Source: Bacteroidota bacterium (GTDB lineage Bacteria; Bacteroidota; Ignavibacteria; Ignavibacteriales; Ignavibacteriaceae). From it: a stretch of 64,000 nt of DNA. How positions within the stretch are numbered: the first letter of the stretch is position 1; every line of letters starts with the position of its first letter. Location: positions 186,001-250,000 of the forward strand of contig JAIUOE010000005.1 of assembly GCA_020161395.1 (NCBI GenBank), read 5' to 3'. Made by a program: the position numbers and the translations under genes. This document shows, piece by piece, positions 8,435 through 23,657 of this stretch. The notes below the pieces were generated by a model. That model was given only the letters and a program-made list of their open reading frames with translations, was not told the origin of the DNA and made no database searches.

Positions 8435-9688
8435 TTATTCATCATATTTCTTAAAGATCACTGATGTATTATGACCGCCAAATCCAAATGCATTACTCAT
8501 GGCATATTCAACATTCTTCTTCTGAGGAGTGTTGAATGTGTAGTTGAGATCACAGTCGGGATCAGGATATTCAAAATTTATTGTGGGGGGTATTGCACTG
8601 TTTCTGATCGACAGAATCGTAGCTATCGCCTCAACAGCACCCGCAGCACCAAGTAGATGCCCTGTCATGCTCTTTGTCGATGACACATTCATTTTATATG
8701 CCTGCTCACCAAATACCGCCTTAATCGACTGTGTCTCTGCTATGTCACCAAGTCCTGTCGATGTTCCGTGCATGTTTATGTAATCTATTACCGAAGGATC
8801 AAGCCCTGCATATTTCAATGCTCTGTGCATGGCGAGTCTCGCACCCCTTCCCTCGGGATCGGGAGCGGTTATGTGGTAGGCATCACCCGTCAGTCCGTAA
8901 CCAACCACTTCAGCGTAAATTTTTGCACCTCTCTTCTTTGCGTGCTCGAGTTCTTCAAGCACGAGTGCACCGGCACCCTCTCCCATCACAAAACCGTCAC
9001 GGGTTTTGTCGAAAGGTCTGCTTGCAGTTTCAGGTGATTCATTTCTTTTCGAGAGTGCCTGAGCGGAATTGAAGCCCGCAACGCCAAGTTCGCAAATTGG
9101 TCCCTCGGTTCCGCCACATACCATCACTTCCGCCTGACCTTCCTTGATCAGCATAAAGGAATCGATAAAATTGTGGTTTGAAGTTGCACAGGCTGATACG
9201 GCACAATAGTTGGGTCCTCTGAAACCATACTCAATCGAAACCTGCCCGGAAGCAATGTCGGGAATCAGCATCGGAATAAAGAAGGGAGATACACGGTTGG
9301 GTCCCTGTTCGGCGAGTATCCTTGCCTGTTCCTGGAATACATTCATACCACCAATTCCTGATCCTATCATTACGCCTGTATCATCTTTATCATCTGACGA
9401 CATCTTTTCGGGATCAAGTCCGGCATCCTCAAGTACTTCTTTTGCAACCGCCATGGCATACTGACAGAAAAGATCCATGCGGCGTACTGCCTTGCGGTCA
9501 ATATAGTTCAGGGGATCGAAACCTTTGAGCTCACAGGCAAATTTAGTTACCACTCTTGAAGTGTCAAATTTTGTGATCTCTGCAGCTCCACTCCTGCCCT
9601 CCATCATTCCTTGCCAAAATTCATCTACACTAAGTCCAATCGGAGTGAGGGCTGCCATTCCGGTTACTACTACTCTTCTTCTTTGCAT
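8435..9688 (-). CDS. fabF: 3-oxoacyl-[acyl-carrier-protein] synthase II
   Basis: The 417-residue condensing enzyme of fatty-acid elongation starts MQRRRVVVTGMAALTPIG. The catalytic Cys lies in VSACATSNHN and the two His in NMHGTSTGLGD and STKSMTGHLLGAAG. The glycine-rich end is NAFGFGGHNTSVIF. An upstream in-frame ATG at 9727 would add 13 residues unlike the family start, so 9688 is preferred, with a weak AGAGAA ribosome site. The usual acpP neighbour is absent. Confidence 0.95.
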   Translation of the reverse strand: MQRRRVVVTGMAALTPIGLSVDEFWQGMMEGRSGAAEITKFDTSRVVTKFACELKGFDPLNYIDRKAVRRMDLFCQYAMAVAKEVLEDAGLDPEKMSSDDKDDTGVMIGSGIGGMNVFQEQARILAEQGPNRVSPFFIPMLIPDIASGQVSIEYGFRGPNYCAVSACATSNHNFIDSFMLIKEGQAEVMVCGGTEGPICELGVAGFNSAQALSKRNESPETASRPFDKTRDGFVMGEGAGALVLEELEHAKKRGAKIYAEVVGYGLTGDAYHITAPDPEGRGARLAMHRALKYAGLDPSVIDYINMHGTSTGLGDIAETQSIKAVFGEQAYKMNVSSTKSMTGHLLGAAGAVEAIATILSIRNSAIPPTINFEYPDPDCDLNYTFNTPQKKNVEYAMSNAFGFGGHNTSVIFKKYDE

Positions 9689-9883
9689 TAGTTCTCTTTG
9701 TTTGTTAAAAATTAGTAAAAGCTGCATACCGGCATCTCGATTTCCACCGGAGAAAACATAGTCCCGGGGTGTTCCGGTGTACTGCTTCTAACAATTATTA
9801 AATATATAAATCCTCAACCTGTAAATTTAAATCTTTTTTTCATTCTAATCAAACCGGGCAGCATTAAAGATCAAGTTATCTTG

Positions 9884-10339
9884 CTAAAACTCCCACATTC
9901 CAAAAAGAAATTCCTTGTCGAGCGGAAGATTCACCGATTTCAGTGTGACCACAATCTGACCTCTGTGATGAGCCTCGTGCGAAACAAGATAGACCAGAAA
10001 AGAGTTTATCCCCTTTGGATATCCCTTCACCTTCATGTCTGTTCTGATACTTGTCTCAATCAGACCTCCAAACCTGTCGGATGAAATCCTCAGTGCCTCA
10101 GATATTTTTGTTTTGTAGGTTTGATCATCTTTCTGAAGTTTTATCAGTCCCTCAGGCTTTGTTGTACCTATTGCCATTAGCCATTGAACCCGTACATTAT
10201 TTATGTGACAGAACTGCGAACCGACACTTCTTCCTCCGTATGACGGTTTCACATTCAAATAATGCTCCGGTATTTTTTCAAGAAGATCCAGTGTTATTTT
10301 GTTGGATGCATCCCACGATTCTCGAAGACTTAAGACCAT
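9884..10339 (-). CDS. DinB/YfiT-like four-helix metalloprotein
   Basis: The 151-residue protein has the DinB-family metal ligands: a His in FCHINNVRVQW (about residue 45) and HEAHHRGQIV near residue 126. DinB-like proteins bind a divalent metal and often act as thiol-dependent transferases; the substrate here cannot be told. It stands alone between fabF and the divergent SDR gene. Confidence 0.85.
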   Translation of the reverse strand: MVLSLRESWDASNKITLDLLEKIPEHYLNVKPSYGGRSVGSQFCHINNVRVQWLMAIGTTKPEGLIKLQKDDQTYKTKISEALRISSDRFGGLIETSIRTDMKVKGYPKGINSFLVYLVSHEAHHRGQIVVTLKSVNLPLDKEFLFGMWEF

Positions 10340-10414
10340 TTTATAACTCTTATTTCAATTTTTGGTAAATTGCAGTCAGTTTTTTTTAATTGATCACAAA
10401 ATACGGTAAATTTT

Positions 10415-11182
10415 ATGAACATCAAAGGAAAAATTGTATTTATTACGGGTGCCTCTTCCGGAATCGGACTGGAAACAGCCAAAGCCTTCGCCCGTGAAGG
10501 ATGCAATCTTATTCTTACTGCGCGGAGAATCGAAAAGCTTCACTCCCTCTCTTCTTCTATTTCATCTGAATTTGGCATAGAAACCCTGCCTCTGCAGCTC
10601 GATGTCCGGAAAAGAAAAGATGTTTTCACTCTAATAGAGGGACTGCCCGACAAATGGAAAAAAATTGACATCCTGGTCAATAACGCCGGTCTCGGAAGAG
10701 GGCTCTCCCCCATCCACGAAAGTGATGTCGACGGCTGGGACGAAATGATCGATACAAACATTAAAGGACTCCTCTTTGTTACCAAAGCTGTGGTGCCCCT
10801 CATGATCGCAAACGGAAGCGGACACATTATTAATATCGGTTCTGTTGCCGGACGCGAAGTGTATCCCAACGGAAATGTTTACTGCGCTACAAAATTTGCG
10901 GTTTTTGCCCTCTCCAAATCGTTGAGACTCGAACTGTACGACAAAAACATCCGGGCTACAACGGTTGATCCGGGGATGGTTGAAACTGATTTCAGCGTTG
11001 TAAGGTTTCGAGGAGATACTGAACGGGCTGCAAATGTTTACAAAGGTTTGACTCCACTTCATCCCGCTGATGTCGCTGACACAGTGGTTTTCTGCGCAAC
11101 CAGACCTCCTCATGTCAATATTTCGGAAATTGTTATTTATCCTTCAGACCAGGCTAACACAACAACTGTAAAAAGAGTCTAA
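10415..11182 (+). CDS. short-chain dehydrogenase/reductase (SDR, YdfG-like)
   Basis: The 255-residue classical SDR has the nucleotide loop TGASSGIG (about residue 11), NNAGLGRG (about 88), and the catalytic Ser-Tyr-Lys in IGSVAGREVYPNGNVYCATK (about 141-161). The Arg in LTARRIEKL after beta-2 suggests NADP(H). The sequence resembles serine/3-hydroxy acid dehydrogenases of the YdfG type, but the substrate is not proven. The helicase gene follows after 13 bases. Confidence 0.88.
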   Translation: MNIKGKIVFITGASSGIGLETAKAFAREGCNLILTARRIEKLHSLSSSISSEFGIETLPLQLDVRKRKDVFTLIEGLPDKWKKIDILVNNAGLGRGLSPIHESDVDGWDEMIDTNIKGLLFVTKAVVPLMIANGSGHIINIGSVAGREVYPNGNVYCATKFAVFALSKSLRLELYDKNIRATTVDPGMVETDFSVVRFRGDTERAANVYKGLTPLHPADVADTVVFCATRPPHVNISEIVIYPSDQANTTTVKRV

Positions 11183-11195
11183 ACTCCAGAGAGAT

Positions 11196-13337
11196 ATGCC
11201 CGACAAACTTAAAGGCGAAATTGAACGCATAACCTTTTATAACGAAGATACCGGATTCGGGGTCGTAAGGCTCCGTTCCGGGAAAATAATTACGGGCACA
11301 CTTCCGAAACTTTCCGAAGGCGACAGGGTTGAAGCAGAAGGTGAGTGGACTGTCCACCCCAAATTCGGTTCCCAGCTTAAGGTGAGTAAAATAGTGATAA
11401 TGAAGCCGGAAGGAAAACTCGCCATCCTGAAATATCTCTCCTCAGGCGCCCTTAAAGGTCTCCCGAAAAACTCGGCTAAATTTATCGTCGACTACTTCGG
11501 CGAAAAGGCCCTTGAAATTATCGATAAAGACCCGCAAAAACTTCTGAAGGTTCCCGGTATATCAGCTAAAAAACTTCAAAAAATTCTTGAAAGCTGGAAT
11601 GAACAAAAAAACCTTCACAAACTGGTTATTTTTCTCCAGAACTATGATATCCCCCTCACTCACGCCAATAAAATATTGCAGAAATATGGCGACAAAGCTG
11701 AAACTGTCATCCTGACCAACCCCTATCAGTTGATTTTTGATATCAGAGGTGTCGGATTCAAAACGGCTGATACCATTGCTCAAAAGATTGGCTTGAATCA
11801 CGATTTTCCTCCGAGAATCAAAAGCGGTGTGCTCTATATTCTGGAAAATGTGGCAAACAGCGACGGACATGTTTATCTCCCTTATGATCAACTGGTCACT
11901 CTCTGTCAAAAAAATCTCTCAGTCGATCTTGCTTCTTATGAAAAGCAGTTCAACGAGCTGATTGCAGAAAGAAGAATACTCGTGGTAAATGATAATGTCT
12001 ACCTGCGCGAGGTTTATGAATCCGAGAGAATTATCGAGACAAAAATCCTGGAACTCTCGAGAACAAAACACGATGACACTACCGATTTTTTCAAAAACTT
12101 TGTCCATACTCTGAAACACTTTTCGGAAGAACAGCTTGAAGCGGTAAGATTCAGTACGGAGAACGGCTTCCTCGTCCTCACAGGCGGACCGGGCACTGGA
12201 AAGACGACCACTCTAAAAGGAATTATCGATCTTTACAAGAAGTGCAAACTGAAAATTGCTCTCGCAGCCCCTACCGGAAGAGCCGCAAAAAGAATGGCTG
12301 AAGTAATCGGTCTCGAAGCTAAAACCATCCACAGACTCCTCGAATATGATTCACAGACAGGCAAGTTTGTACATAACAAAAGCAATCCGATAAAGGCAAA
12401 TCTCCTCGTTATAGATGAAGTCTCGATGATCAATACATTTCTGATGGCATCACTTCTCTATGCGGTGGACAGTGAAACCACGGTCGTTTTTGTCGGTGAC
12501 AAAGACCAGCTCCCCGCCATCGGACCGGGTAACATCCTCCACGATATCCTCGAATATAACCGGATTCCGATTATCAGATTGAATAAAATTTTCCGTCAGG
12601 CAGAGCAAAGCAGAATCATCACCAATTCTCACAAGATCAATCAGGGGCTCATGCCCGATCTCTCCAACTCGAAGGAGAGCGATTTCTTCTTTATGGAAGA
12701 GGATGACAGCAACAAAATCCCCGACTTGCTCCTCGACCTTGTAAAGAACCGCCTCCCTGCGAAGTATAATTTTAATCCTTTCACCGACATACAGATTCTT
12801 GCTCCTATGTACAAAGGAAATGCAGGGGTCGATGCAATTAACAACCTCCTGCAGGAGGGTCTGAATCAGGGGAAGGTCATCTATACAAAGGGGGATGTTA
12901 CATTCAAGTTGAACGATAAATTTATGCAACTTGTGAACGACTATGAAAGGGATATTTACAACGGTGACATTGGTTATCTGGCAGGCTTGGACGATGAAGA
13001 GGAAGAACTGATCTTCAATTTTGGGGAACGGGAAGTAAAATTCAGTAATTCATCTCTCGATGATGTTACCCTTGCATACGCATGCACTATCCACAAAAGT
13101 CAGGGTTCGGAATACCCCTGCGTAATAGTGGTGCTTACAAATGAACAATATTATATGCTCAAGCGGAATCTGATCTATACGGCGATTACCAGAGCTGCTG
13201 AATTGCTGATAATTGTCGGAAGCAAGCGCGCAGTACAACTTGCTGTTTCAAACAATGCGGAACAAAAACGCTACACCTCTCTCTTTAAATTACCCGGTCA
13301 AACTGAAACTTCCCTCGCTCCGACCTATATGTTCTAA
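11196..13337 (+). CDS. recD2: RecD2-type ATP-dependent 5'-3' DNA helicase
   Basis: The 713-residue superfamily 1B helicase matches RecD2/TraA-type proteins, which act without RecBC in repair. The N-terminal OB-like region is followed by helix-hairpin-helix motifs (LLKVPGISAKKLQK and GVGFKTADTIAQKIGL). The motor has Walker A GGPGTGKTT near residue 330, Walker B LLVIDEVSMI near 404, GDKDQLPAIGPGN, LNKIFRQAEQSRI, and the C-terminal HKSQGSEYPCV plus YTAITRA. It is probably co-transcribed with the SDR gene. Its 3' end overlaps by 4 bases the convergent methyltransferase gene. Confidence 0.92.
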   Translation: MPDKLKGEIERITFYNEDTGFGVVRLRSGKIITGTLPKLSEGDRVEAEGEWTVHPKFGSQLKVSKIVIMKPEGKLAILKYLSSGALKGLPKNSAKFIVDYFGEKALEIIDKDPQKLLKVPGISAKKLQKILESWNEQKNLHKLVIFLQNYDIPLTHANKILQKYGDKAETVILTNPYQLIFDIRGVGFKTADTIAQKIGLNHDFPPRIKSGVLYILENVANSDGHVYLPYDQLVTLCQKNLSVDLASYEKQFNELIAERRILVVNDNVYLREVYESERIIETKILELSRTKHDDTTDFFKNFVHTLKHFSEEQLEAVRFSTENGFLVLTGGPGTGKTTTLKGIIDLYKKCKLKIALAAPTGRAAKRMAEVIGLEAKTIHRLLEYDSQTGKFVHNKSNPIKANLLVIDEVSMINTFLMASLLYAVDSETTVVFVGDKDQLPAIGPGNILHDILEYNRIPIIRLNKIFRQAEQSRIITNSHKINQGLMPDLSNSKESDFFFMEEDDSNKIPDLLLDLVKNRLPAKYNFNPFTDIQILAPMYKGNAGVDAINNLLQEGLNQGKVIYTKGDVTFKLNDKFMQLVNDYERDIYNGDIGYLAGLDDEEEELIFNFGEREVKFSNSSLDDVTLAYACTIHKSQGSEYPCVIVVLTNEQYYMLKRNLIYTAITRAAELLIIVGSKRAVQLAVSNNAEQKRYTSLFKLPGQTETSLAPTYMF

Positions 13338-14128
13338 ACGGACTTGCTCAGGATATATACCGTCTCATTCGGGAAGGTTAAATCAATCTTAATCAGCTCA
13401 AGCCCCTCTATAAGACCGTCAAGAAATACAGCATAGTTTTCAGCCATCCCTTTTTCTCTGCCACCAATCGATTTAGACGGAAAACTTACCACCACATTCT
13501 TTGCAGCAAGTGCATTTTTAAGAATCAAGGCGGCACTTCCTTTTTCCTGTCTCTCAATACACGACAATGTCTTGAAAAGAAAAACCACATCATAATCAGC
13601 GAAATTGATCTGATCCACCGTCAAATCCTTGTTCGAGCTCGAAAAATTTACCAGCCCCGCATCGCGAAAAAATCTGTTCAGATTATCATTCAACACCACA
13701 TCAATATCGGAACAGTGATATTCCTCAACCCAACTCATAAAATACCCTGCCGAGAAAGGATTATATCCACACGCCGCATCGTAAATTTTAAATTTCCTGT
13801 CACTCCCCAACACCCCGAATATCCTGCTGTAGAATTCCTCATAAAACCCCGCCCTCTCCGCCGTCGATACATGCCCGCTCAATATTTTTTCAACATCCAA
13901 CATCCCCCCGTCACCAACTAATAACTCATAATTCATAACTAATAATTGGTACGCTCCATAAATCTGATGCAGCTTTTTCTTCACATTTTTTTCAATCTCT
14001 TTTTCCTTGCCGTACCGGGTGATCATCATATCGATAATCTTACGAACGGTTCCCTCATAAACATTGGAATATTTACCCGATTTCCTGATCGAGGAGTAAA
14101 TCTTTTCCGACAGAGTCTGTTTATCCAT
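13334..14128 (-). CDS. ArmA/Rmt-like 16S rRNA (guanine-1405-N7) methyltransferase, paralogue 1
   Basis: The 264-residue protein resembles ArmA, RmtB and Sgm (FmrO family) along its whole length. It has the N-terminal SGKYSNVYEGTVRKII segment, KKKLHQIYGAY (residues 50-60), HVSTAER (86-92), the SAM loop YDAACGYNPF (116-125), YDVVFLFKTL, and the C-terminal FPSKSIGGREKGMAENY (about 217-233) that is diagnostic of the family. Known members methylate N7 of G1405 in helix 44 and give high aminoglycoside resistance. ATG 14128 overlaps the end of tgt; a longer frame to 14353 would read back through tgt and is rejected. It is the last gene of a four-gene operon. Native function is inferred. Confidence 0.82.
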   Translation of the reverse strand: MDKQTLSEKIYSSIRKSGKYSNVYEGTVRKIIDMMITRYGKEKEIEKNVKKKLHQIYGAYQLLVMNYELLVGDGGMLDVEKILSGHVSTAERAGFYEEFYSRIFGVLGSDRKFKIYDAACGYNPFSAGYFMSWVEEYHCSDIDVVLNDNLNRFFRDAGLVNFSSSNKDLTVDQINFADYDVVFLFKTLSCIERQEKGSAALILKNALAAKNVVVSFPSKSIGGREKGMAENYAVFLDGLIEGLELIKIDLTFPNETVYILSKSV

Positions 14129-15224
14129 TAATCTGCCGCAGCTTGTCGGTGAGTCTGGTGTAAAACCGGAGATTGTGAATTGTTGCGAGTCTGTTGGCAA
14201 GTGTATCCCCGATTCTGAATAAATGATGCAGATAACTTCGTGTGAAGTGCCGGCATGTATGGCAGTCACATCCCTCCTCAACCGGCTTGAAATCCTTAAT
14301 GTGAATGTCATCCTGCATATAAAGATATTTGTAAAATCCGTCTGCAAGATCATCGATATTTTCTATCGAATCGTAGTTTTTGAATGTGTAGAGCCTTTTG
14401 TGCCGGGCATCCCTGGTTGGTATTACACAATCGAAGATTTCATAACCGGCGATAAATGCCCTAACAAGATTTTCCGGCTTCCCGATTCCGAGAGCATGTT
14501 TCGGGTAACCCGCCCCCACGAGTCCGGCAACGAATCCCACCATTTCCAGAAGCTTTCCCTCGTCGTCGATGGGCCAGCCGCCAAAACCGTAGCCGTCAAA
14601 ACCGATCTCCATCAAAGCTTCAACACATTTTTTTCTGAGCTCTTTGTTGTTCCCCCCCTGAACGACACCAAATATCAGGGGTCTGTCGTCATCCGAAATT
14701 TTCCTGATTTTGATCTGATTTTCATACTCTTTTTTGCATCTCTTTGCCCACTTTATCGTCAGGTCAACGCTCTCAATCTGGATTTCATCGGGTGCCGAGG
14801 GATGAGTGCAGTAGTCGAGACAATAGATTATGTCAGCTCCGATTCTGAACTGGTGCTGAATACATTTTTCCGGTGTGAGGGTCTGCTTCTCTTTTTCCTG
14901 CTCAAGTTTGTAGGTGAATCCGTCTTTGTGTATCGTCCCCGCTTTTGACTCGGTGATCAGGGAATAAACCTGAAAACCACCCGAATCTGATATCACAGGA
15001 TGATGAAAGTTCATAAACTCATGGATGCCACCGATTCCGTTCACGGTTGTCAGTCCGGGCTTGGTGGTCAGGTGAAGTGTATTCACAACTATTGCCTCAA
15101 TTCCGCAGGTTTCCAGATCGGACGAATCAACACTTCTTACTATTCCTCTCGTACCATCGGGCAAAAATACCGGGAAGTACATCTCACCTGAACGGGTTTT
15201 AAGACTCTTCATCTTCCTCCTCAC
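14121..15224 (-). CDS. tgt: tRNA-guanine transglycosylase family protein, divergent
   Basis: The 367-residue TIM-barrel enzyme keeps the base-exchange Asp in ISDSGGFQVYSL (D80), FGVVQGG, the nucleophile region FDCVIPTRDAR, and the zinc site CDCHTCRHFTRSYLHHL. Bacterial Tgt inserts preQ1 at tRNA position 34. Here the base-recognition loop GGLAVGE is replaced by GFGGWPID and the normal PTRNAR-NGHLF is PTRDARHKRLY. The substrate may therefore differ from preQ1. ATG 15212 (MKSLKTR) is an alternative start. It overlaps rsmI upstream by 26 bases and the methyltransferase downstream by 8. Confidence 0.85.
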   Translation of the reverse strand: MRRKMKSLKTRSGEMYFPVFLPDGTRGIVRSVDSSDLETCGIEAIVVNTLHLTTKPGLTTVNGIGGIHEFMNFHHPVISDSGGFQVYSLITESKAGTIHKDGFTYKLEQEKEKQTLTPEKCIQHQFRIGADIIYCLDYCTHPSAPDEIQIESVDLTIKWAKRCKKEYENQIKIRKISDDDRPLIFGVVQGGNNKELRKKCVEALMEIGFDGYGFGGWPIDDEGKLLEMVGFVAGLVGAGYPKHALGIGKPENLVRAFIAGYEIFDCVIPTRDARHKRLYTFKNYDSIENIDDLADGFYKYLYMQDDIHIKDFKPVEEGCDCHTCRHFTRSYLHHLFRIGDTLANRLATIHNLRFYTRLTDKLRQING

Positions 15225-16017
15225 TCTCCATTTTCTTTAATTTGTATTTTGAAACCCGTTTCTTTTCTTCGAATTCCTCGCTCTCCATTTCATCGGGATC
15301 ATCAGTTTCAGAGTCACCCTCCTCATCTGTGAATTTTGGATTCGCACCCGCTAACAGTGCGGTTATCTCTCCCCTCAAATCACTCTTTTCCAGCACTTCC
15401 TTCATCTCTGAAAGTGGTGCCCTGATAATTGTTTCATACTGCTTTGTAAGTTCGAGACAGACCACCGCCATCCTGTTACCGAGCACTGCATATGCCGATT
15501 CCATCGCCTTGATTATCCTGAATTTTGACTCAAAAAAGATGATGGTGTGAGGCAGGTTTTTCTCGTCCTCAAAAAACTTCCTTCTTTTACCCTCTTTCCT
15601 CGGAGGAAAGCCCTTGAATGTGTAACTCGAAAAGGGAAGTCCTGAAGCTATAAGGGCAGTCTGAACCGCGGATGCCCCCGGCGACACCTCCACCTTGAAA
15701 CCCTCTTCAACAGCCCGCGAAACCACCCTGTAACCGGGATCGCTTATCCCCGGCATTCCGGCATCCGACACCAAGCCGACATCAATACCCGATCGTAAAA
15801 GGTTGAGCATCTTCTCCGTCGCTTTTATCTCGTTATGTTCATGACAGGAGAAAAGATGGTGATGCATCTCTATTTCGAGTTTTTGCATCAAAGACCGTGT
15901 TGTTCTGGTATCCTCGCATGCGATGTGTTCCAGCGTCTTTAGAAGCCTGAGACTCCTCAAGGTGATATCCTCAAGATTTCCGATTGGAGTGGAAATCACA
16001 TACAGAGTTCCGCTCAT
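15199..16017 (-). CDS. rsmI: 16S rRNA (cytidine-1402-2'-O)-methyltransferase
   Basis: The 272-residue tetrapyrrole-methylase-fold enzyme starts GTLYVISTPIGNLEDITLRS. It has CEDTRTTRSL, VSDAGMPGISDPGYRVV and the RsmI signature FKGFPPRKEGKRRKFFE. It adds the ribose methyl at C1402 of helix 44, three nucleotides from G1405. The last 45 residues form an acidic, lysine-dotted extension (DSETDDPDEMESEEFEEKK) beyond the usual end. ATGA overlap with the upstream methyltransferase (16014-16017) indicates translational coupling. Confidence 0.93.
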   Translation of the reverse strand: MSGTLYVISTPIGNLEDITLRSLRLLKTLEHIACEDTRTTRSLMQKLEIEMHHHLFSCHEHNEIKATEKMLNLLRSGIDVGLVSDAGMPGISDPGYRVVSRAVEEGFKVEVSPGASAVQTALIASGLPFSSYTFKGFPPRKEGKRRKFFEDEKNLPHTIIFFESKFRIIKAMESAYAVLGNRMAVVCLELTKQYETIIRAPLSEMKEVLEKSDLRGEITALLAGANPKFTDEEGDSETDDPDEMESEEFEEKKRVSKYKLKKMESEEEDEES

Positions 16018-16850
16018 TTCCCCTCCTCCGTCACCGGTTCCTTGTCAACCACTACCACCACTTCATTTTCAAACTCGATATATCCGAGCTTCCAGCCAAA
16101 CTCTTCGGCACCTTTCTTAAGGTCTTCTTCATGGTTCCCAAGGATGTCGGTCTTCTTTGCGACCAGATTCAGAGTCGGAAATGAAATTAAAACCTTGCGG
16201 GCAGGAACATTCTTCACCACTTCAAGCCCCGCTCCCGTCAGTCTGTGCTCAAGACAATAGTACATTTTGAACAGAAACGCCACATCCACCGGAATTTCAG
16301 GAGGACTCGGGTAAACATCCCTCTGTATCCCGAGAGGTTCCAATCCCTCCAAAGCAAAGTAGAAATTTATCAGATCAATAAACTGTTCATTTACATCATA
16401 GGCATAAAACTTCACGGAATTGTCCAGTCCCATCCATCTGAATGATAATGGATTCAACGCACAGGCAAGATCGGCTATCGATTCAGGCCTCCCCGTCACC
16501 TCAAACAGTCTGTTGTAATATTCCCCCAACAGAAGATTCCTCTCCCGGGTGGAGGCATGCTTCGAAAATATCGACCAGCAGACTCCCCTTATCTCCTCGT
16601 CATCTTTCTTTTCAAATGCAGCAGTCAGCGCCTCCTTCACTTTTTTATAGTTCGGCTCCCCCAGATATTCCGCCCGAATCCTGTGCAGCTTCTTTTTAGC
16701 TGCCTCCTCGGCAATTTTCAAACTCTTGTGCCGCTCCAGTTCCTTCACTATCACATCACGGATCGTCTCTTCAAGAATAATCTTATACTTTTTCGAGGCT
16801 TTTATTTTCTTTACTATGTCGTCTATTTTCTGCTGCATCTCATTTTTCAT
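16014..16850 (-). CDS. ArmA/Rmt-like 16S rRNA methyltransferase paralogue 2 (divergent)
   Basis: The 278-residue protein shares the family pattern of RmtB: IKASKKYKIILEETIRDV, an ERHKS motif, AAKKKLHRIRAEY (about residues 65-77), KHASTRERN, the SAM loop ADLACALNPLSF and VAFLFKMYYCLE. The C-terminal GGRxKGMxxNY motif of active G1405 methylases is replaced by NLVAKKTDILGNHEEDL after the conserved SFP. It may modify another site, act with paralogue 1, or be regulatory. It is the first gene of the operon with rsmI, tgt and paralogue 1. ATG 16838 (MQQKIDD) is an alternative start. Confidence 0.75.
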   Translation of the reverse strand: MKNEMQQKIDDIVKKIKASKKYKIILEETIRDVIVKELERHKSLKIAEEAAKKKLHRIRAEYLGEPNYKKVKEALTAAFEKKDDEEIRGVCWSIFSKHASTRERNLLLGEYYNRLFEVTGRPESIADLACALNPLSFRWMGLDNSVKFYAYDVNEQFIDLINFYFALEGLEPLGIQRDVYPSPPEIPVDVAFLFKMYYCLEHRLTGAGLEVVKNVPARKVLISFPTLNLVAKKTDILGNHEEDLKKGAEEFGWKLGYIEFENEVVVVVDKEPVTEEGK

Positions 16851-16920
16851 TTTAACACTGCAAATTTAACTATAATCTCCCGAATTTGGAGGACGCAGAT
16901 TAAACAGATGAACGCGGCTG

Positions 16921-17045
16921 AAAAATGGAACACAGATGAAACGGATTCACCTGATTTCCACGGATGGGGGAAGCCCATGCGGCGACATATGGGTAGAAAA
17001 ATGGAACACGGATGAAACGGATTCACCTGATTTCCACGGATGGGG
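16921..17045. repeat. two 49-base direct repeats
   Basis: The segments 16921-16969 and 16997-17045 are nearly identical (both contain GATGAAACGGATTCACCTGA and then TTTCCACGGATGGGG). They are separated by 27 bases containing GCGGCGACATATGGG, a word related to CATGTCGCCACAAGGG at 34004 and 46080. These belong to the short dispersed intergenic repeats seen across this window. The rest of the 500-base gap to the insertion element has no gene I can support. Confidence 0.8.
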
Positions 17046-17128
17046 CACCAAATCAACTCGCCTGGGCGTGTGTCATGTTCGTAGCAGAATGTTCGTAGCA
17101 ACATCGACCAATTTCACCCACCGCTTTT

Positions 17129-17153
17129 CCCCCCACCTTTATAAGGAGGGGGG
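17129..17153. repeat. G/C-tract hairpin
   Basis: CCCCCC, A, CCTT, a short TA loop, AAGG, A and GGGGGG form a near-perfect inverted repeat, followed by more G-runs to 17180. It is an intergenic structural repeat with no adjacent U-tract, so I do not call it a terminator. Confidence 0.7.
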
Positions 17154-17415
17154 TTAGGGGGGCGGTACGAAGGAGGGGGGAAGAGCTGTAACTACCTCCT
17201 CATATCATCTCGCATCCACAAAATAATACTAATACTCTTTGCGTTTGTTTTAGCAAAGTTATAACTTATTTGGAAACAAGTATACTATTCATTGCAATAA
17301 GCACTTCCAGATTATTGATCTCAATCATATTTGTATTATCTTCTAACCATTGTGTTAAGGTTAGAAGAAAGTAGAATTTCATAAATTTAATTAAATAAAT
17401 TTGGAGATTCCTAAA

Positions 17416-17727
17416 ATGTCAAAAAGGACCACATATCCTGCAGCAAAGAAAGTAGAAATATTAAGAGAAATCATGGAAGGCGGACTGAAAGTATCAGATG
17501 CTTCAAGGAAATATGATATACCCGTTCAGGTAATTCTTCAATGGAAAAAGCGGCTGTTTGAAGGAGCCCTTCAGACATTTAGTGCACCCCCCGGAAAGAA
17601 GCCCGGTGATAAACACGATAAAGAAGTTGCCCTGCTACAGAAGAAACTCCAAAACCGGGAGATAGCGATAACAGGTCTGGCTATGGAGTTGATGTACTTA
17701 AAAAAAAACATCAATGGAGAAATGTAA
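17416..17727 (+). CDS. IS3-family transposase OrfA
   Basis: The 103-residue protein starts MSKRTTYPAAKKVEILREI and carries a helix-turn-helix (VSDASRKYDIPVQVILQWKKR), then a leucine-containing coiled coil (HDKEVALLQKKLQNREI) typical of OrfA. Its last codons cross a run of nine A (17700-17708). TTG 17401 is an alternative start without support. Confidence 0.85.
   Translation: MSKRTTYPAAKKVEILREIMEGGLKVSDASRKYDIPVQVILQWKKRLFEGALQTFSAPPGKKPGDKHDKEVALLQKKLQNREIAITGLAMELMYLKKNINGEM
17700..17709 (+). promoter_or_regulatory. programmed -1 frameshift slippery site of the IS
   Basis: In the orfA frame the codons are TTA AAA AAA AAC, giving the slippery heptamers A AAA AAA (17700-17706) and A AAA AAC (17703-17709). 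The -1 frame is open without a stop from here to the orfB end at 18695, so slippage yields a full OrfAB transposase of about 426 residues. Confidence 0.8.
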
Positions 17728-17876
17728 AGGGTAAATGGGTATCTCCGGAGATAAGAGATGACATTTTAACCACGGTAAAAAGAATCAGTGAAAAGTACAA
17801 GGTTGCACAATTAGCACTCATAGCAGCATCAGGTACAGGAATTAGCACCTTCTACAAATGGGAGAAACAGTTTGGT

Positions 17877-18695
17877 ATGCAACGGATTATGCAGACGAGA
17901 ACACCTCCTTGTATCTGGCTGACAGATGAAGAGAAACTTGACATCATAGCTTATTCGAGAGACCACCCTGGAGAAGGTTATAAACGACTGACATTTATGA
18001 TGATAGATGAAAATGTCGCTTTTGCATCACCATCAACGGTTTACAGGGTGTTAAAGAAGGAGAATCTCCTTAACCGGTTCAATAATGTAAAGAAGACAGC
18101 AAGCAAAGGGAGTGGTTTTCAGCAACCTGATGGAGTGAATCAACACTGGCATACAGATATCAAATATGTAAAGTTTCATTACTCTTTCTTATTTTTGATA
18201 ACTGTTATTGATGGCTTTTCAAGGTACATAGTCCATCATGAACTTTTTCTGTCAATGAACACCGGGGATGTGATCATGACAATACAGAGGGCTTTGGAGA
18301 AACATCCGGGCATAGCTCCAAGAGTGATTACGGATAACGGGTCACAGTTCGTCTCGAAAGAATTTGGGGAGTATTTACGAATGGTCGGAATGAAGCAGAT
18401 CAGAACCTCTGTGGTTTATCCCCAAAGTAACGGTAAGATCGAGAGATACCACAGATCAATCAACCAGGAGTGCCTGCAGGTGAACTCGCTTCTTGACTAT
18501 GAGGATGCAAAGAGACAGGTCGCTGAATATGTGGAATACTATAATTGCGAGAGACTGCATAGTGCTCTGCATTATCTGCCACCTGAGGACTATTTGCTCG
18601 GAAGAATTGATGAAAGAATTGCGGAAAGAAAAAACAAACTGTTCGAAGCTCAACAAAGAAGATCAGAGAAAAATATGAGCTCTTTGTTAGCTTAA
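17877..18695 (+). CDS. IS3-family transposase OrfB (rve/DDE integrase core)
   Basis: The catalytic core shows the DDE triad: HWHTDIKYV, VITDNGSQFVS, and QSNGKIERYHRSINQE with the usual K/R seven residues after the Glu. The part translated from ATG 17877 is 272 residues, but the frame is open back to the slippery site and adds about 55 residues that include a second helix-turn-helix-like segment (VAQLALIAASGTGISTFYKW). The working protein is most likely the OrfAB fusion rather than free OrfB. Confidence 0.88.
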   Translation: MQRIMQTRTPPCIWLTDEEKLDIIAYSRDHPGEGYKRLTFMMIDENVAFASPSTVYRVLKKENLLNRFNNVKKTASKGSGFQQPDGVNQHWHTDIKYVKFHYSFLFLITVIDGFSRYIVHHELFLSMNTGDVIMTIQRALEKHPGIAPRVITDNGSQFVSKEFGEYLRMVGMKQIRTSVVYPQSNGKIERYHRSINQECLQVNSLLDYEDAKRQVAEYVEYYNCERLHSALHYLPPEDYLLGRIDERIAERKNKLFEAQQRRSEKNMSSLLA

Positions 18696-18775
18696 TTAAT
18701 AAATAATTATTCCACTTTTTGGTGAACCAATACATTCGCACCTAAATTCTTTTTTAGTTATACATTATTTTAAAC

Positions 18776-19303
18776 TTAATTAATTCGGAATCCAGTTGCA
18801 TTTTTTTTTGAAGGGGAAGCCTTCGATCTTTTTATTAATCCTTTCTCCAAATCTTCTTTGAACTTGGCTGCCAGTCTTTCACGATATTCTCTTCGCATTA
18901 TTAGCGCAGCTCTATCTTCCTTGGATAGCTTTTCAATTTCATCTAAAATTTGACACAACCCAAGATAGCTGCACAATTTTGTTAGTATTTGGATTTCATT
19001 TGAATCAATTCCGTCTGTCACCGCAGCGACAACAAACGCATCGAGAATTAGCAAAACTTGCTCTTCCAGATTATCAGTAAGTTCCAGTTCGTTTTTTGTT
19101 CGTGCAGCTTCAAAGCATTCAACCATATCTTGGTCCGATAAACCCATTCTGCCCGCAACCAAATGTATTATGCCTATTTCAGCCCCATCTACATTCCCGT
19201 CTGCAAGACCGATATTAAATAAAATGGTGAGATGCGATTTCTGTTTTGACAATTTCTTTTCCATATTTAATATGCTTTCTTTAAATGTTGCTAGATTAGA
19301 CAT
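18776..19303 (-). CDS. TerB-like protein, partner of the putative nuclease upstream
   Basis: The 175-residue protein has two TerB-type acidic repeats: LFNIGLADGNVDGAEIGII (about residues 28-46) and AAVTDGIDSNEIQILTKL (about 92-109). A basic C-terminal tail (KRSKASPSKKNATGFRIN) follows. No signal peptide. It lies 7 bases downstream of the 494-residue gene, so the two are one transcription unit. The pair sits directly beside the insertion element and has lower G+C than the flanks, which suggests transfer. Confidence 0.65.
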   Translation of the reverse strand: MSNLATFKESILNMEKKLSKQKSHLTILFNIGLADGNVDGAEIGIIHLVAGRMGLSDQDMVECFEAARTKNELELTDNLEEQVLLILDAFVVAAVTDGIDSNEIQILTKLCSYLGLCQILDEIEKLSKEDRAALIMRREYRERLAAKFKEDLEKGLIKRSKASPSKKNATGFRIN

Positions 19304-19310
19304 TTTTTAT

Positions 19311-20795
19311 TTACTTCACTTCTTCAATAAATTCATAAAATTCGATTACCTGAGTATAAAGAAGATCAACGAGTTTCTCTTCATCCTTAAATAGTTTGAC
19401 CAGGAGTTGATCCTGCCTTACAATTTCTTCCTCTTCCGAGTTTCCGAATTTATTTTGCTTACCATATGGGATTCTTAGAGTATAAAAGAGTGAAAATCTT
19501 TTAATTCCCATTTTCAGGTATGGTATAAATCTTTCTTCAAGGAACTGCACTGGATCACCTTGCCTGAGCAGAAAATCGAAATCAAACTCCAATTTGAACC
19601 TGTTATACATTTCACCTTTTATTTGTCCCTTTTTCCAGTCCCAAAGTCGATCATCGCTTAATGACAACCTGTAACGATGCAAAATGTCTTTTTGATCTTT
19701 AGATACTCCTTTGGATTTTATGTATTCAGCAATTTTCCCTTTGGAAAGACTGGCGATAAGTTTCGTAATGCTCTTTTGAGACATGTCAAATGTATCGAAT
19801 CCAATGACCATGTATTCACCCGGCAGACCCATACTAATGTGTGGAGACCGCATTGGAGTACCATTTGAATCCGGGATGCCCCAATAATCCCAAAGTCCCG
19901 CCAAAGGCCGTTCGCTCATTATGACAGTTGATTCTTTTGGTTGCCCCTCGAAGTGCTTTGTTACCTTCTGATTCACTTTGTTTAATAGATGTGCAAATAT
20001 CTGTTTTCTTTCTATTGAATCGGTGTCTTCTTTTAAGAGATTTTTAATATCAACATCAGCATTGGACATAAGGAAGTAGCCTCGTAAATTTTTCGTAAAA
20101 TATTTGGTTGCAATATCCGTCTGAGAAAATCGATCTAAACTTTCATTAATTTCACGCCATGTAAGGTTTATAATGTTTGAGTTGCAGAAATCCTTCAACT
20201 TTTCTTTGTTCAAATTTAAACCGAATTTTTCTCTTACCAGGTGTCGCAAAATTTGGTGCACTGAAATTGGATTGTTACCGATTTTTGCCTCGACCAACAC
20301 GGCAACATCCACTTTTTCACCTTCATTTTTTTTCTGCAATATCCAGGCATCTGCGCGGTTTTCACCAGTTTCTAGATCGGGCTTAGGTTGACTCATATCG
20401 CTTACCCCGGTTGTCGGATCGTAAATTTCGCTAAGGTTACCAAGGTCAAAAGGTAAAGTTGATATTATCATTAATACCTTTTGTACATCTGCCTCTTTGA
20501 CCCTTCTATGATCTGCTTTGTCCTCAAGGTTTTGCAAGTCAAACTGTGGTTTTTTCAATTTTTTCAAAGCTTTTAGAGCATTTAAAGTGATTTTTTCTTT
20601 GGGCAGACAATTAAAGAAGCCCTGAAGCTGTTCTGTCTCTGAAAGAAAGTCCAGGAAAATTATGAAAGCGCGGGTGACATTGTCTTCAATAATCCCCCTT
20701 ACATTTGCATCACCATTTTCTTGGGTCTTCGTTCTAATCTGAAGATGTTCGTTGTTATAGTTATGAAACAAGTTTAAGTGTCTGTCTCTGCTCAT
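19311..20795 (-). CDS. putative PD-(D/E)XK-type nuclease, accessory
   Basis: I do not recognise a named family. The 494-residue protein has an N-terminal helical part and, at about residues 140-180, the pattern PKPDLETGENRADAWILQ followed after about ten residues by VAVLVEAKIGNNP. An Asp then E-x-K on adjacent strands, with QILRH a little further on, is what PD-(D/E)XK nucleases show. The rest is mixed alpha/beta with many aromatic and charged residues. Together with the TerB-like partner and the local A+T richness, a defence role is likely but unproven. Confidence 0.55.
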   Translation of the reverse strand: MSRDRHLNLFHNYNNEHLQIRTKTQENGDANVRGIIEDNVTRAFIIFLDFLSETEQLQGFFNCLPKEKITLNALKALKKLKKPQFDLQNLEDKADHRRVKEADVQKVLMIISTLPFDLGNLSEIYDPTTGVSDMSQPKPDLETGENRADAWILQKKNEGEKVDVAVLVEAKIGNNPISVHQILRHLVREKFGLNLNKEKLKDFCNSNIINLTWREINESLDRFSQTDIATKYFTKNLRGYFLMSNADVDIKNLLKEDTDSIERKQIFAHLLNKVNQKVTKHFEGQPKESTVIMSERPLAGLWDYWGIPDSNGTPMRSPHISMGLPGEYMVIGFDTFDMSQKSITKLIASLSKGKIAEYIKSKGVSKDQKDILHRYRLSLSDDRLWDWKKGQIKGEMYNRFKLEFDFDFLLRQGDPVQFLEERFIPYLKMGIKRFSLFYTLRIPYGKQNKFGNSEEEEIVRQDQLLVKLFKDEEKLVDLLYTQVIEFYEFIEEVK

Positions 20796-20941
20796 TTGTT
20801 ATCTTTTGAAAGAGTTAGTCGGGTTTCACTATTAATTCTGTACAGTACCGGATTATCGATAAAAACCGGCTGTCGGAACTTGCTGTTCCCAAACATCAAT
20901 ATTTTCTTCTGCCAATATTTTATCCAGGAATCATTTAACAA

Positions 20942-21163
20942 TTAATACATTTTCATTGGACCATTAACATATTTAGCATCATACTCTTTTAAAAATCCTT
21001 GTATATCTGGATCATTTTGTATAGCTTTCTTTAGATCTAGCATTATTTGATTCGCCTTCTTAACCGCATCATTATTTTCCCTCTCCCACCGTGCATTCTG
21101 AGCCATCAACCTAACTTCAGTTGGCCAAAGCAATACTCTTCCAATTTTTTCTAAAATAGACAT
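20942..21163 (-). CDS. small helical hypothetical protein
   Basis: The 73-residue product starts MSILEKIGRVLLWPTEVRLM. The start is chosen because GGAGG lies 5 bases upstream of ATG 21163; a second ATG four codons earlier overlaps that ribosome site. It is a charged helical protein (NDAVKKANQIMLDLKKAI) with no motif I can name. It may belong with the nuclease/TerB pair 146 bases downstream. Confidence 0.6.
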   Translation of the reverse strand: MSILEKIGRVLLWPTEVRLMAQNARWERENNDAVKKANQIMLDLKKAIQNDPDIQGFLKEYDAKYVNGPMKMY

Positions 21164-21179
21164 TTTGTCCTCCATTACT

Positions 21180-21746
21180 CTTATGAATTTAATTACACAT
21201 CACTGGTTAAATATTTTAACACCGAATTATACTGATTAGATTTCTATTGATTGTTAAAATTTGTTTTAGGATTATTTTTGAAGTAATAAAATCTGGGAAA
21301 AGTCAAATTCTGACATACTTAAGTTACAAATTTCTCTCGAAATATTTCATCACTATTCTTAATATAATTATCATAATTTTATCGGGTTGCTTTGCATAAT
21401 TTTTTCATAAATTTACTAGTTTAATTAGTATTTCTACTAATTTATTAAGTAAAACTACTGATTACGAACTATTTTATTTGTTTGGAATAAAACTTTACTG
21501 AGGCAAATATTTGTCAAGCATTGTATTTTATTTCGACTTTTATTTAGAATTGACACATTTCTAAAAGAGTGTACTGACTTAAATTGACAAAAAAGTTCGA
21601 GTTTAGGTCATTCTTTAATATAATACGGAATTATTATTGCATCTCAAATGACCTCTTCAAAATCTAATTAACTGTTTGGTGCGAAGGGCAGATGCCTCAT
21701 GTAAATATTTTTGCAAATAACCAGTAATCGGAATAACTCCCCTAAA
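21180..21746. other. A+T-rich intergenic stretch without a supported gene
   Basis: No open frame of useful length is visible on either strand. A weak palindromic patch of ACTAGTTTAATTAGT-like words lies at about 21410-21470 and may be a decayed version of the array that follows. The composition is clearly more A+T-rich than the core genes. Confidence 0.6.
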
Positions 21747-21876
21747 TTCCATAAATTTACCGTAATTTGTGGAGTATAACTCCATAAATTCAGCTTATTT
21801 TATGGTTTATATATCCATATTTTTTACTATATTTGTGGAGTTTCATTCCATAAATTTACCGTAATTTGTGGAATAT
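21747..21876. repeat. palindromic repeat array in front of the first AAA_14/DUF4143 ATPase
   Basis: Two copies of CCATAAATTTACCGTAATTT followed by GTGGA (21749-21773 and 21848-21872) bracket further inverted words: TTTGTGGAGTATAACTCCAT, a TTTTATGG half-site and ATTTGTGGAGTTTCATTCCA. The units are palindromes (TGGAGT facing ACTCCA) joined by an AATTTACCGTAATT spacer. The last copy runs into the start codon of the ATPase gene, so these sites could act as its operator. Confidence 0.8.
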
Positions 21877-23041
21877 GATTTATCATTATCTCAAAAATGA
21901 CATGAAAACCTATTTAAAGCGAAAACTGGACTCCCCCGAACTTCTCAAAGCCAATAAGGTGCTTGTGATTTACGGACCCCGTCGTGTCGGAAAAACAACT
22001 CTGATGGACTCCCTTATCAGCAATGTCACGGGCAGGATAAAGCGCGTAACCGGCGATGACATTTCGGTGCAAAATACCATCGCATCGCGGCGACTGGATG
22101 TGCTGAACCCTTTCCTGTCGGAAATTAACCTTCTGGCAATTGATGAAGCACACGAAATCAAGGATGTGGGGAAGGGACTTAAACTGATTGTCGATAATAT
22201 TGAAGAAATTACAGTAGTGATTACGGGCTCATCCTCTTTCAATATCGAACAGGCAGCAGGTGAGCCCCTGGTTGGAAGAAAAACCGTTGTGACTCTCTAC
22301 CCTTTCGCACAGCAGGAGCTTTTGGCTATACATCAAAACGCTTGGGACCTAAGCCGAAAACTGCCCGAATACCTGGTTTTTGGTTCTTATCCTGAAGTGG
22401 TTCTGGCTAAAACTGTCCGTGAAAAGATGGAAATCATTCACGGGATTGTTAACTCGTATCTTCTGAAGGATATTCTTGCATTCTCCAATCTTAGAGGTTC
22501 CATGCTGATATTTAATCTGCTGAAACTGTTGGCTTTTCAGGTTGGAAGTGAAGTGTCTATGAATGAACTCTCAGACAAGGTGGGAATAGATGTTAAAACG
22601 ACTCAAAGGTATCTCGACCTGTTGGAAAAATCTTTCATAATCAAAAGATTAACTCCCTGGTCGACCAACAGACGCCGTGAGGTTACTTCCAAAAACAAAT
22701 ACTATTTTATCGATAACGGTATAAGAAACGGAACAATCTCACAGTTTAACGGTCTCGAGAACCGAAATGACATCGGCGCTCTTTTTGAAAATTTCATCGT
22801 GATGGAATTCTTCAAAAAGCAGGCGAACAACCGTGACTATGGTGAGTTGTATTTTTGGAGAAATTATGAGAAACAGGAAATAGACCTTTTGCTGATCAGG
22901 GATGGTTTTATCCAACCTTATGAGATTAAGTATAATCCCAAAGCGAAGATAAAAAAGACCTCATTCACTGACACCTACCATGAAGTGTTACCTGTGAAAG
23001 TAATTCACTCCGAAAACTACCACGAATATCTGCTGGATTGA
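21875..23041 (+). CDS. AAA_14/DUF4143 ATPase, copy 1
   Basis: The 388-residue protein has Walker A IYGPRRVGKTTL (about residues 33-44), Walker B LLAIDEAHEI (about 86-95) and the sensor VITGSSSFN. A winged-helix region (MNELSDKVGIDVKTTQRYLD) follows, then the C-terminal DUF4143 domain with KQEIDLLLIRDGFIQPYEIK, whose Asp and E-x-K look nuclease-like. Start: ATG 21875 is used; ATG 21902 is the alternative, and the palindromic array overlaps the first. This family is very mobile and its function is unresolved. A second copy lies at 30519. Confidence 0.82.
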   Translation: MIYHYLKNDMKTYLKRKLDSPELLKANKVLVIYGPRRVGKTTLMDSLISNVTGRIKRVTGDDISVQNTIASRRLDVLNPFLSEINLLAIDEAHEIKDVGKGLKLIVDNIEEITVVITGSSSFNIEQAAGEPLVGRKTVVTLYPFAQQELLAIHQNAWDLSRKLPEYLVFGSYPEVVLAKTVREKMEIIHGIVNSYLLKDILAFSNLRGSMLIFNLLKLLAFQVGSEVSMNELSDKVGIDVKTTQRYLDLLEKSFIIKRLTPWSTNRRREVTSKNKYYFIDNGIRNGTISQFNGLENRNDIGALFENFIVMEFFKKQANNRDYGELYFWRNYEKQEIDLLLIRDGFIQPYEIKYNPKAKIKKTSFTDTYHEVLPVKVIHSENYHEYLLD

Positions 23042-23063
23042 TATCCCGTCCGCGGGGTATCAA
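23040..23063. repeat. hairpin after the ATPase gene
   Basis: GATATCCCG and CGGGGTATC form an inverted repeat with a TCCG loop right at the stop codon of the ATPase gene. No U-tract follows, so termination is possible but not shown. Confidence 0.5.
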
Positions 23064-23081
23064 TCCCGGCAATTAAACCCT

Positions 23082-23657
23082 CTACCCCCCAAACTCTGCT
23101 GCCTTCTTCACCATTTCGTCATACCAAAACGGCTTTTTGGGGTTCTCTTTCAATCCCTCCATGTCGAGGTGTTCGCAAAGAAGCTTAAATTCGTCTGCGG
23201 ATAGATAAGGCACAATCGTGACGGGAAGATTCAAAATTTTCTTCGAGGCGAGTATTCTTTCGACAACATGCGGAAAAATGTACCCAAGTTGTTTCAATTC
23301 ACTAAACACAAAAAGGAGGTCATAAAGATTTGTAACCCCCTCCTCAAATTCCCTGAGCAGCACATCCACCAATCCGGGGATTTTCCCGACGGGGATCTCC
23401 TTCACTTCATACCAGATGCTGTCAACCTTCCTCTTTCCGTCAGGTCGCTCCTTTGAAGTGAAAAAGAGGAAGAAATCGCCCCGCTTCAGCTTCGTAAGTT
23501 TGGCAAGCAATTCCTCCCTCTTTATCTGACTGAAATGGAAAAATACATCGTTCCTGTAGTGCAGACTCTTCAGGAATCCATAGCCTTTTTCATCAATTTT
23601 CTTTACCCGGCAAAAATCCACGGGCTCATTTACAACCGCTCTATCTGGCAAGTACAA
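23082..23657 (-). CDS. cold-shock-like domain protein with unknown C-terminal region
   Basis: Residues about 14-50 (CRVKKIDEKGYGFLKSLHYR, then NDVFFHFSQIK) match the nucleic-acid-binding strands of a cold-shock OB fold (K-GYGF and VFFHFS are the RNP-like motifs). The remaining 140 residues are helical and I do not recognise them. The start is TTG 23657, which overlaps the end of the serine hydrolase gene by 17 bases in another frame. The overlap suggests translational coupling with it. RNA binding is the likely activity. Confidence 0.6.
   Translation of the reverse strand: MYLPDRAVVNEPVDFCRVKKIDEKGYGFLKSLHYRNDVFFHFSQIKREELLAKLTKLKRGDFFLFFTSKERPDGKRKVDSIWYEVKEIPVGKIPGLVDVLLREFEEGVTNLYDLLFVFSELKQLGYIFPHVVERILASKKILNLPVTIVPYLSADEFKLLCEHLDMEGLKENPKKPFWYDEMVKKAAEFGG

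Follow-up and report, generated by a model that had tools for sequence, protein, structure and literature searches.

The window analyzed here, a 64,000-nucleotide stretch from an Ignavibacteriaceae genome (Bacteroidota bacterium; GenBank assembly GCA_020161395.1, contig JAIUOE010000005.1, positions 186,001 to 250,000), contains a four-gene operon encoding two paralogues of the FmrO/Rmt family of 16S rRNA methyltransferases (P2 and P1), an RsmI and a divergent tRNA-guanine transglycosylase (TGT2). We think it probable, though well short of certain, that this is an old native operon for modifying the ribosomal decoding site, which confers intrinsic aminoglycoside resistance and is the type of operon that supplied the rmt genes now on plasmids. 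All four genes are on the minus strand, and they are transcribed in the following order:

16850-16014, minus strand: P2, divergent FmrO/Rmt-family methyltransferase, 278 amino acids, operon gene 1 (Pfam FmrO, Sgm match, SAM-site residues, dN/dS)
16017-15199, minus strand: rsmI, predicted C1402 2′-O-methyltransferase (TIGR00096, clade of operon copies)
15224-14121, minus strand: tgt2, divergent tRNA-guanine transglycosylase paralogue TGT2 (PF01702, clade with plasmid tgt, pocket residues)
14128-13334, minus strand: P1, predicted 16S rRNA guanine-1405 N7 methyltransferase, 264 amino acids, last gene (Pfam FmrO, RmtC match, motifs, tree, dN/dS)
14128-14121, minus strand: overlap of the tgt2 stop and the P1 start, 8 nucleotides, ATGGATAA

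The initial annotation of this DNA described two FmrO/Rmt paralogues flanking rsmI and tgt with overlapping ends, and the open reading frames and their order bear this out. P2 and rsmI overlap by 4 nucleotides, and the 8-nucleotide tgt/methylase overlap is common to the window, its closest relative (G076), a further genome (G053) and plasmids carrying rmtG. The mechanically called reading frame of P1 extends upstream to 14353; the orthologues and an alignment with RmtC favor the ATG at 14128. Nucleotide composition is even throughout the operon, which lies on a 364-kb contig of a genome with 100% completeness and 0.5% contamination.

Membership of both paralogues in the FmrO/Rmt family, also proposed initially, holds, and the resemblance is not due to chance. 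P1 (103.6 bits) and P2 (153.6 bits) scored well above the Pfam FmrO cut-off of 27, and their relatives in the PDB are RmtC, Sgm and RmtB, with RmtC the top match for P1 (E 1.8e-31) and Sgm for P2 (E 8e-33). The best NCBIfam family for both was Rmt_gen (197.8 bits for P1, 172 bits for P2); as both fall under its equivalog cut-off of 250 bits, the NCBI rule would not call P1 an Rmt. The motifs quoted in the initial annotation (SGKY/SKKY, KKKLH and HVSTAER/HASTRER) are present in both proteins, and GGREKGMAENY is found in P1 only. P1 retains every residue conserved across the aligned Sgm, ArmA and Rmt proteins, including K204, R241, G244, M245 and Y249 (RmtC numbering, used for both paralogues). 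R241 and M245 reportedly matter for RmtC function. All P2 sequences retain the S-adenosylmethionine (SAM)-site residues S107, T108, E110, R111, D134, N140, P141, D160, D188 and K204. The target motif G244-M245...Y249, which reads G-M...Y in 13/13 other aligned members, is D-I...H in 6/6 P2 sequences. P2 is a family member by descent, but with this motif lost from P2 in all six genomes it is probably not an ordinary G1405 enzyme. The proposal that both paralogues are m7G1405 methylases thus still holds as a prediction for P1 and is weakened for P2. An AlphaFold model of P2 from three sequences was poor (predicted local distance difference test score, 57.7; predicted template modeling score, 0.35) and was not used.

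Phylogeny, the check suggested in the initial annotation, placed the P1 proteins of genus g1 with RmtC (support 90/91). P2 formed a long stem bearing short tips, and thus appears constrained for something. A single clade of P1 and P2 was marginally disfavored (approximately unbiased [AU] test, p 0.0385), and a recent duplication of the pair seems unlikely. Their shared family and operon would fit redundant G1405 methylases that arose by lineage-specific duplication. We regard this as rather improbable, given the AU test, the D-I...H that replaces an invariant motif and the far stronger conservation of P2 than of P1. The P1 orthologue of Ignavibacteriaceae SB14 (L077 7508-8839) is 443 amino acids long and open throughout, with low-complexity insertions that include DESSRAATPSGR repeats.

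The initial annotation described the setting of these genes as housekeeping-like. The operon tgt, however, is an FmrO-linked paralogue that also occurs at plasmid rmtB2/D/E2/G loci; the canonical housekeeping gene has a separate location. The window's genome carries two TGT genes, a canonical one on another contig (G000:C2:183291-184367; 537 bits against PF01702) and the operon copy (310 bits). TGT2 scored 303.7 bits against TIGR00430, under the cut-off of 306.75. In a tree that included 19 canonical Tgt sequences, TGT2 proteins of the Ignavibacteria type and from plasmids formed one clade (99/97), separate from canonical Tgt (100/99).

TGT2 is predicted to be catalytically intact with an altered base pocket. 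The catalytic D102, D156, D280 and Q203, the zinc ligands C318/C320/C323/H349 and the anticodon arginines R286/R289 are conserved, and C158, which is important for the affinity of Tgt for prequeuosine-1 (preQ1), is retained. In the pocket, V45 is replaced by D, E157 by Y, H or M, L231 by W or F and A232 by P (10/10 sequences), and E235 is lost. In the Zymomonas mobilis enzyme, the peptide between residues 231 and 232 presents its NH when guanine is bound and its carbonyl when preQ1 is bound, in the latter case with Glu235 holding the amide (PMC3660597). This Leu231/Ala232 switch with Glu235 is absent from TGT2, and since Pro232 cannot offer an NH, base recognition must differ. As QueF and QueA are encoded, preQ1 should be available, and TGT2 may be a preQ1-committed enzyme or an enzyme for another 7-substituted guanine. 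A bolder idea is that TGT2 is a new type of transglycosylase that acts on decoding-site rRNA or N7-substituted guanine rather than ordinary G34, and edits or replaces m7G. A 7-substituted or N7-methylated guanine, such as the product predicted for its operon partner, would fit a pocket that lacks the backbone NH and has gained W231. We rate this idea as a long shot; if true, it would link methylation and base exchange within one operon. In Vibrio cholerae, tgt is required for optimal growth under sub-lethal aminoglycosides (PMC11703503). Separately, genome G001 encodes a further divergent TGT of another type (L083 5638-6750, G001:C230; PTRNARHGLIY) on a long branch, unlinked to FmrO, and a scan of IMG/VR with the TGT2 alignment returned just four TGTs (31-33% identity), none TGT2-like by identity.

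TGT2 and FmrO genes occurred in the same 6 of 80 family genomes, with TGT2 in none that lacked FmrO, and in a class-wide sample both matched the same 4 of 391 genomes and no others. A scan of genome contigs with P1, in which other phyla were hardly sampled, found two loci only, both in the same genus (Chlorobiota CHB2 and Ignavibacteriaceae SB14). The order P2-rsmI-tgt2-P1 is identical in five genomes; in G001, the genes lie on two contigs whose ends are compatible with it. Conservation in relatives, another check proposed at the outset, is thus borne out across the genomes of five relatives, with that qualification for G001. Judged by their translated sequences, the neighbors in genus g1 are recD2 and fabF; in G053 the operon adjoins carotenoid genes, and in G001 it adjoins alaS. 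The flanking genes thus change from one genus to the next while the four operon genes stay together as a unit.

Purifying selection acts on every gene of the operon. Compared with G076, dN/dS (nonsynonymous to synonymous divergence; Nei-Gojobori) was 0.022 for P2, 0.027 for rsmI, 0.022 for tgt2 and 0.110 for P1, with neighboring genes at 0.011-0.015. Synonymous divergence (dS) to this closest relative was ~0.6-0.8, and synonymous sites were saturated beyond it. The suggestion of a long-established chromosomal operon is therefore upheld by the shared four-gene order, the purifying selection and the presence in three genera. The FmrO-positive genera formed one clade in 46% of bootstrap trees (tested with canonical Tgt), and the operon's history may involve a single acquisition, vertical descent with loss or transfer between genera. 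Helix 44 of the host 16S rRNA has ordinary C1402, G1405, C1407 and A1408; as it is the same in FmrO-negative relatives, we rejected an unusual 16S target.

These data bear on a serious but unlikely alternative, that the operon is a resistance island kept mainly for aminoglycosides of the habitat (for example, from actinomycete neighbors), with rsmI and tgt2 merely repairing the cost of m7G1405. The patchy distribution (6/80 genomes) and the differing genomic contexts of the unit fit this explanation, as does the cost of G1405 methylases to fitness and fidelity in Escherichia coli (PMC12406665). However, purifying selection on three of the four genes is near the strength seen in their neighbors, and this, with saturated synonymous divergence between genera, argues for constant use. 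In addition, the more conserved paralogue is P2, the one that lost the G1405 target motif.

RsmI is the 16S C1402 2′-O-methyltransferase, so the decoding-site theme noted initially, an enzyme for C1402 beside methylases for G1405, holds. Its gene is no housekeeping backdrop, since the operon copy stands in for native RsmI. A second RsmI-like paralogue accompanies native RsmI in the FmrO-negative relatives and the operon RsmI in the six FmrO-positive genomes. Native-type RsmI was not found in those six, leaving the operon protein as the sole true RsmI found there. The operon protein scored 203.1 bits against TIGR00096, above the equivalog cut-off of 167.9. In a tree with outgroups, the six operon copies formed one clade (100/100), and the native RsmI clade (100/100) excluded them. 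Thus, the operon RsmI appears to have replaced native RsmI, whether as a foreign gene or as a strongly accelerated native one. The second RsmI-like paralogue (L085, L110-L121, L123-L125), present in most family genomes, is separated from RsmI at 100/100. According to Lioy et al., as cited in PMC12406665, methylation by ArmA blocks RsmI at C1402, which could be the reason for a dedicated operon RsmI.

A search of plasmids with TGT2 recovered 16 records at 44-53% identity; the next matches were ordinary Tgt proteins at no more than 36%. Every one of the 16, on clinical resistance plasmids, sits at an acquired methylase gene: rmtB2 (2), rmtD1/rmtD2 (2), rmtG (8) and rmtE2 (4). The plasmid TGT2 proteins branch in the order rmtG with rmtD2, then rmtB2, then rmtE2, which matches the branching of the Rmt proteins so far as the Rmt tree resolves. 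On the rmtB2 plasmid (L093 5010-7751), tgt2 and rmtB2 are separated by a metallophosphoesterase gene.

The rmtG plasmid operon (rsmH-tgt-rmtG-rsmI′, for example in NZ_CP021956.1) is closest in design to the window. In both, a TGT2-clade tgt lies directly upstream of the FmrO/Rmt gene with the 8-nucleotide overlap, and genes for C1402 methylases (on the plasmid, RsmH and RsmI) are in the same operon. The plasmid operon has a true RsmH (380 bits) first, where the window has P2, and its rsmI is last and truncated to the first ~68 residues, cut near an IS91-like element, whereas in the window rsmI lies between P2 and tgt2. Unlike the window operon, it is mobile and cut by ISCR/IS91 elements, and RmtG and P1 are just 29% identical. 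That a plasmid rmt gene is tied to such an operon is already published for rmtG: a review (PMC9311965, citing Passarelli-Araujo et al. 2019) places it with rsmH, tgt and an rsm gene (printed "rsmL"), and a ribosyltransferase gene upstream of rmtG has been described (PMC3904158). The open-access literature that we searched yielded no description of the chromosomal operon, of a distinct TGT2 clade or of RsmI replacement.

The methylases themselves are distant from the plasmid proteins. P1 shares the family and all motifs with the acquired m7G1405 methylases RmtC, ArmA, RmtB, RmtD, RmtE and RmtF, to which it is 27-34% identical; unlike theirs, the window genes are chromosomal, both proteins fall under the Rmt_gen cut-off and P2 lacks G-M...Y. 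Recent anthropogenic acquisition from resistance plasmids might be suspected, as the named genus members are metagenome-assembled genomes and an IS3-type element is nearby (17401-18695). We consider this extremely unlikely: identities to plasmid proteins are low (28-34% for P1, 26-31% for P2, 44-53% for TGT2), we found nothing on plasmids that corresponds to P2, and dS is ~0.6-0.8 even to the closest relative. Two 7.6-kb contigs from phage records also matched FmrO, and since their gene is 31.7% identical to P1, the same value as ArmA, we take them to be resistance-gene contigs.

P1 and P2 also belong to the same family as Sgm, KgmB and FmrO, and in the PDB P2 matches Sgm best. This resemblance could suggest self-protection of an aminoglycoside producer, as in actinomycetes, an explanation that we find very unlikely. 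Each of the six genomes has one gene of the 3-dehydroquinate-synthase family (presumably aroB), and we found neither a 2-deoxy-scyllo-inosose synthase of the 2-deoxystreptamine pathway in the genome nor a biosynthetic cluster around the operon.

A model that accommodates these data is that P1 methylates N7 of 16S G1405, which would confer intrinsic resistance to 4,6-disubstituted 2-deoxystreptamine aminoglycosides. The operon RsmI, which passes TIGR00096 but forms a clade of its own, would provide the C1402 2′-O-methyl group on G1405-methylated ribosomes. TGT2, which shares the catalytic, zinc and arginine residues of bacterial Tgt (Z. mobilis, E. coli) but not its clade or pocket, would exchange guanine in tRNA (or rRNA) for accurate decoding on the modified ribosome, so that RsmI and TGT2 would both have compensating roles. 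P2, predicted to be SAM-dependent and with a changed target site, may methylate another nearby residue or assist P1. Finally, plasmid rmtB, rmtD, rmtE and rmtG would have been captured from operons of the window's kind, which would account for the tgt2 (and, for rmtG, also the rsmH and the cut rsmI) kept beside some plasmid copies.

Several points weigh against this model. The activities of all four proteins are predictions from sequence, we infer that genes moved from chromosomal operons of this type into plasmids, and no direct donor lineage of the plasmid rmt genes was found. P1 evolves ~5-fold faster than its operon partners, and the window and G053 proteins are 33% identical; thus, P1 function may differ among the three genera. 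The tree of P1 and P2 is only weakly resolved; the proteins analyzed are short and divergent, and tree support is weak in places. A common clade of native and operon RsmI was not rejected (AU p 0.122); the operon copy may be either foreign or an accelerated native gene. Lastly, the operon is rare, and is accessory rather than housekeeping at the family level.

Around the operon, an IS3-type transposase pair (OrfA/OrfB) at 17401-18695 lies between P2 and the upstream neighbor known from relatives, a cold-shock-like gene. This gene, at 23082-23657 in the window, is much nearer P2 in G076 and CHB2. Immediately upstream of P2, at 16920-17045, are two 50-nucleotide direct repeats (98% identical, spacing 76), and four AT-rich 33-nucleotide tandem units of the TCCATAAATTTACCGTAATTTGTGGA type occupy 21748-21909, where an ATPase gene (21866-23041) begins. 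An Rfam scan of positions 9000-24000 gave no match.

Acquired 16S methylases defeat gentamicin, amikacin and plazomicin, and aminoglycoside producers are their usual suggested origin. Here, an intact, selected chromosomal operon of an environmental bacterium carries the unusual type of TGT that is still found with plasmid rmtB2, rmtD, rmtE2 and rmtG, and so offers a concrete setting for asking about the origin and first function of rmtB, rmtD, rmtE and rmtG. Our data suggest that the plasmid rmt genes are parts of a module for tuning translation that includes TGT2 and a dedicated C1402 methylase; the partners captured alongside them may affect their fitness cost on plasmids.

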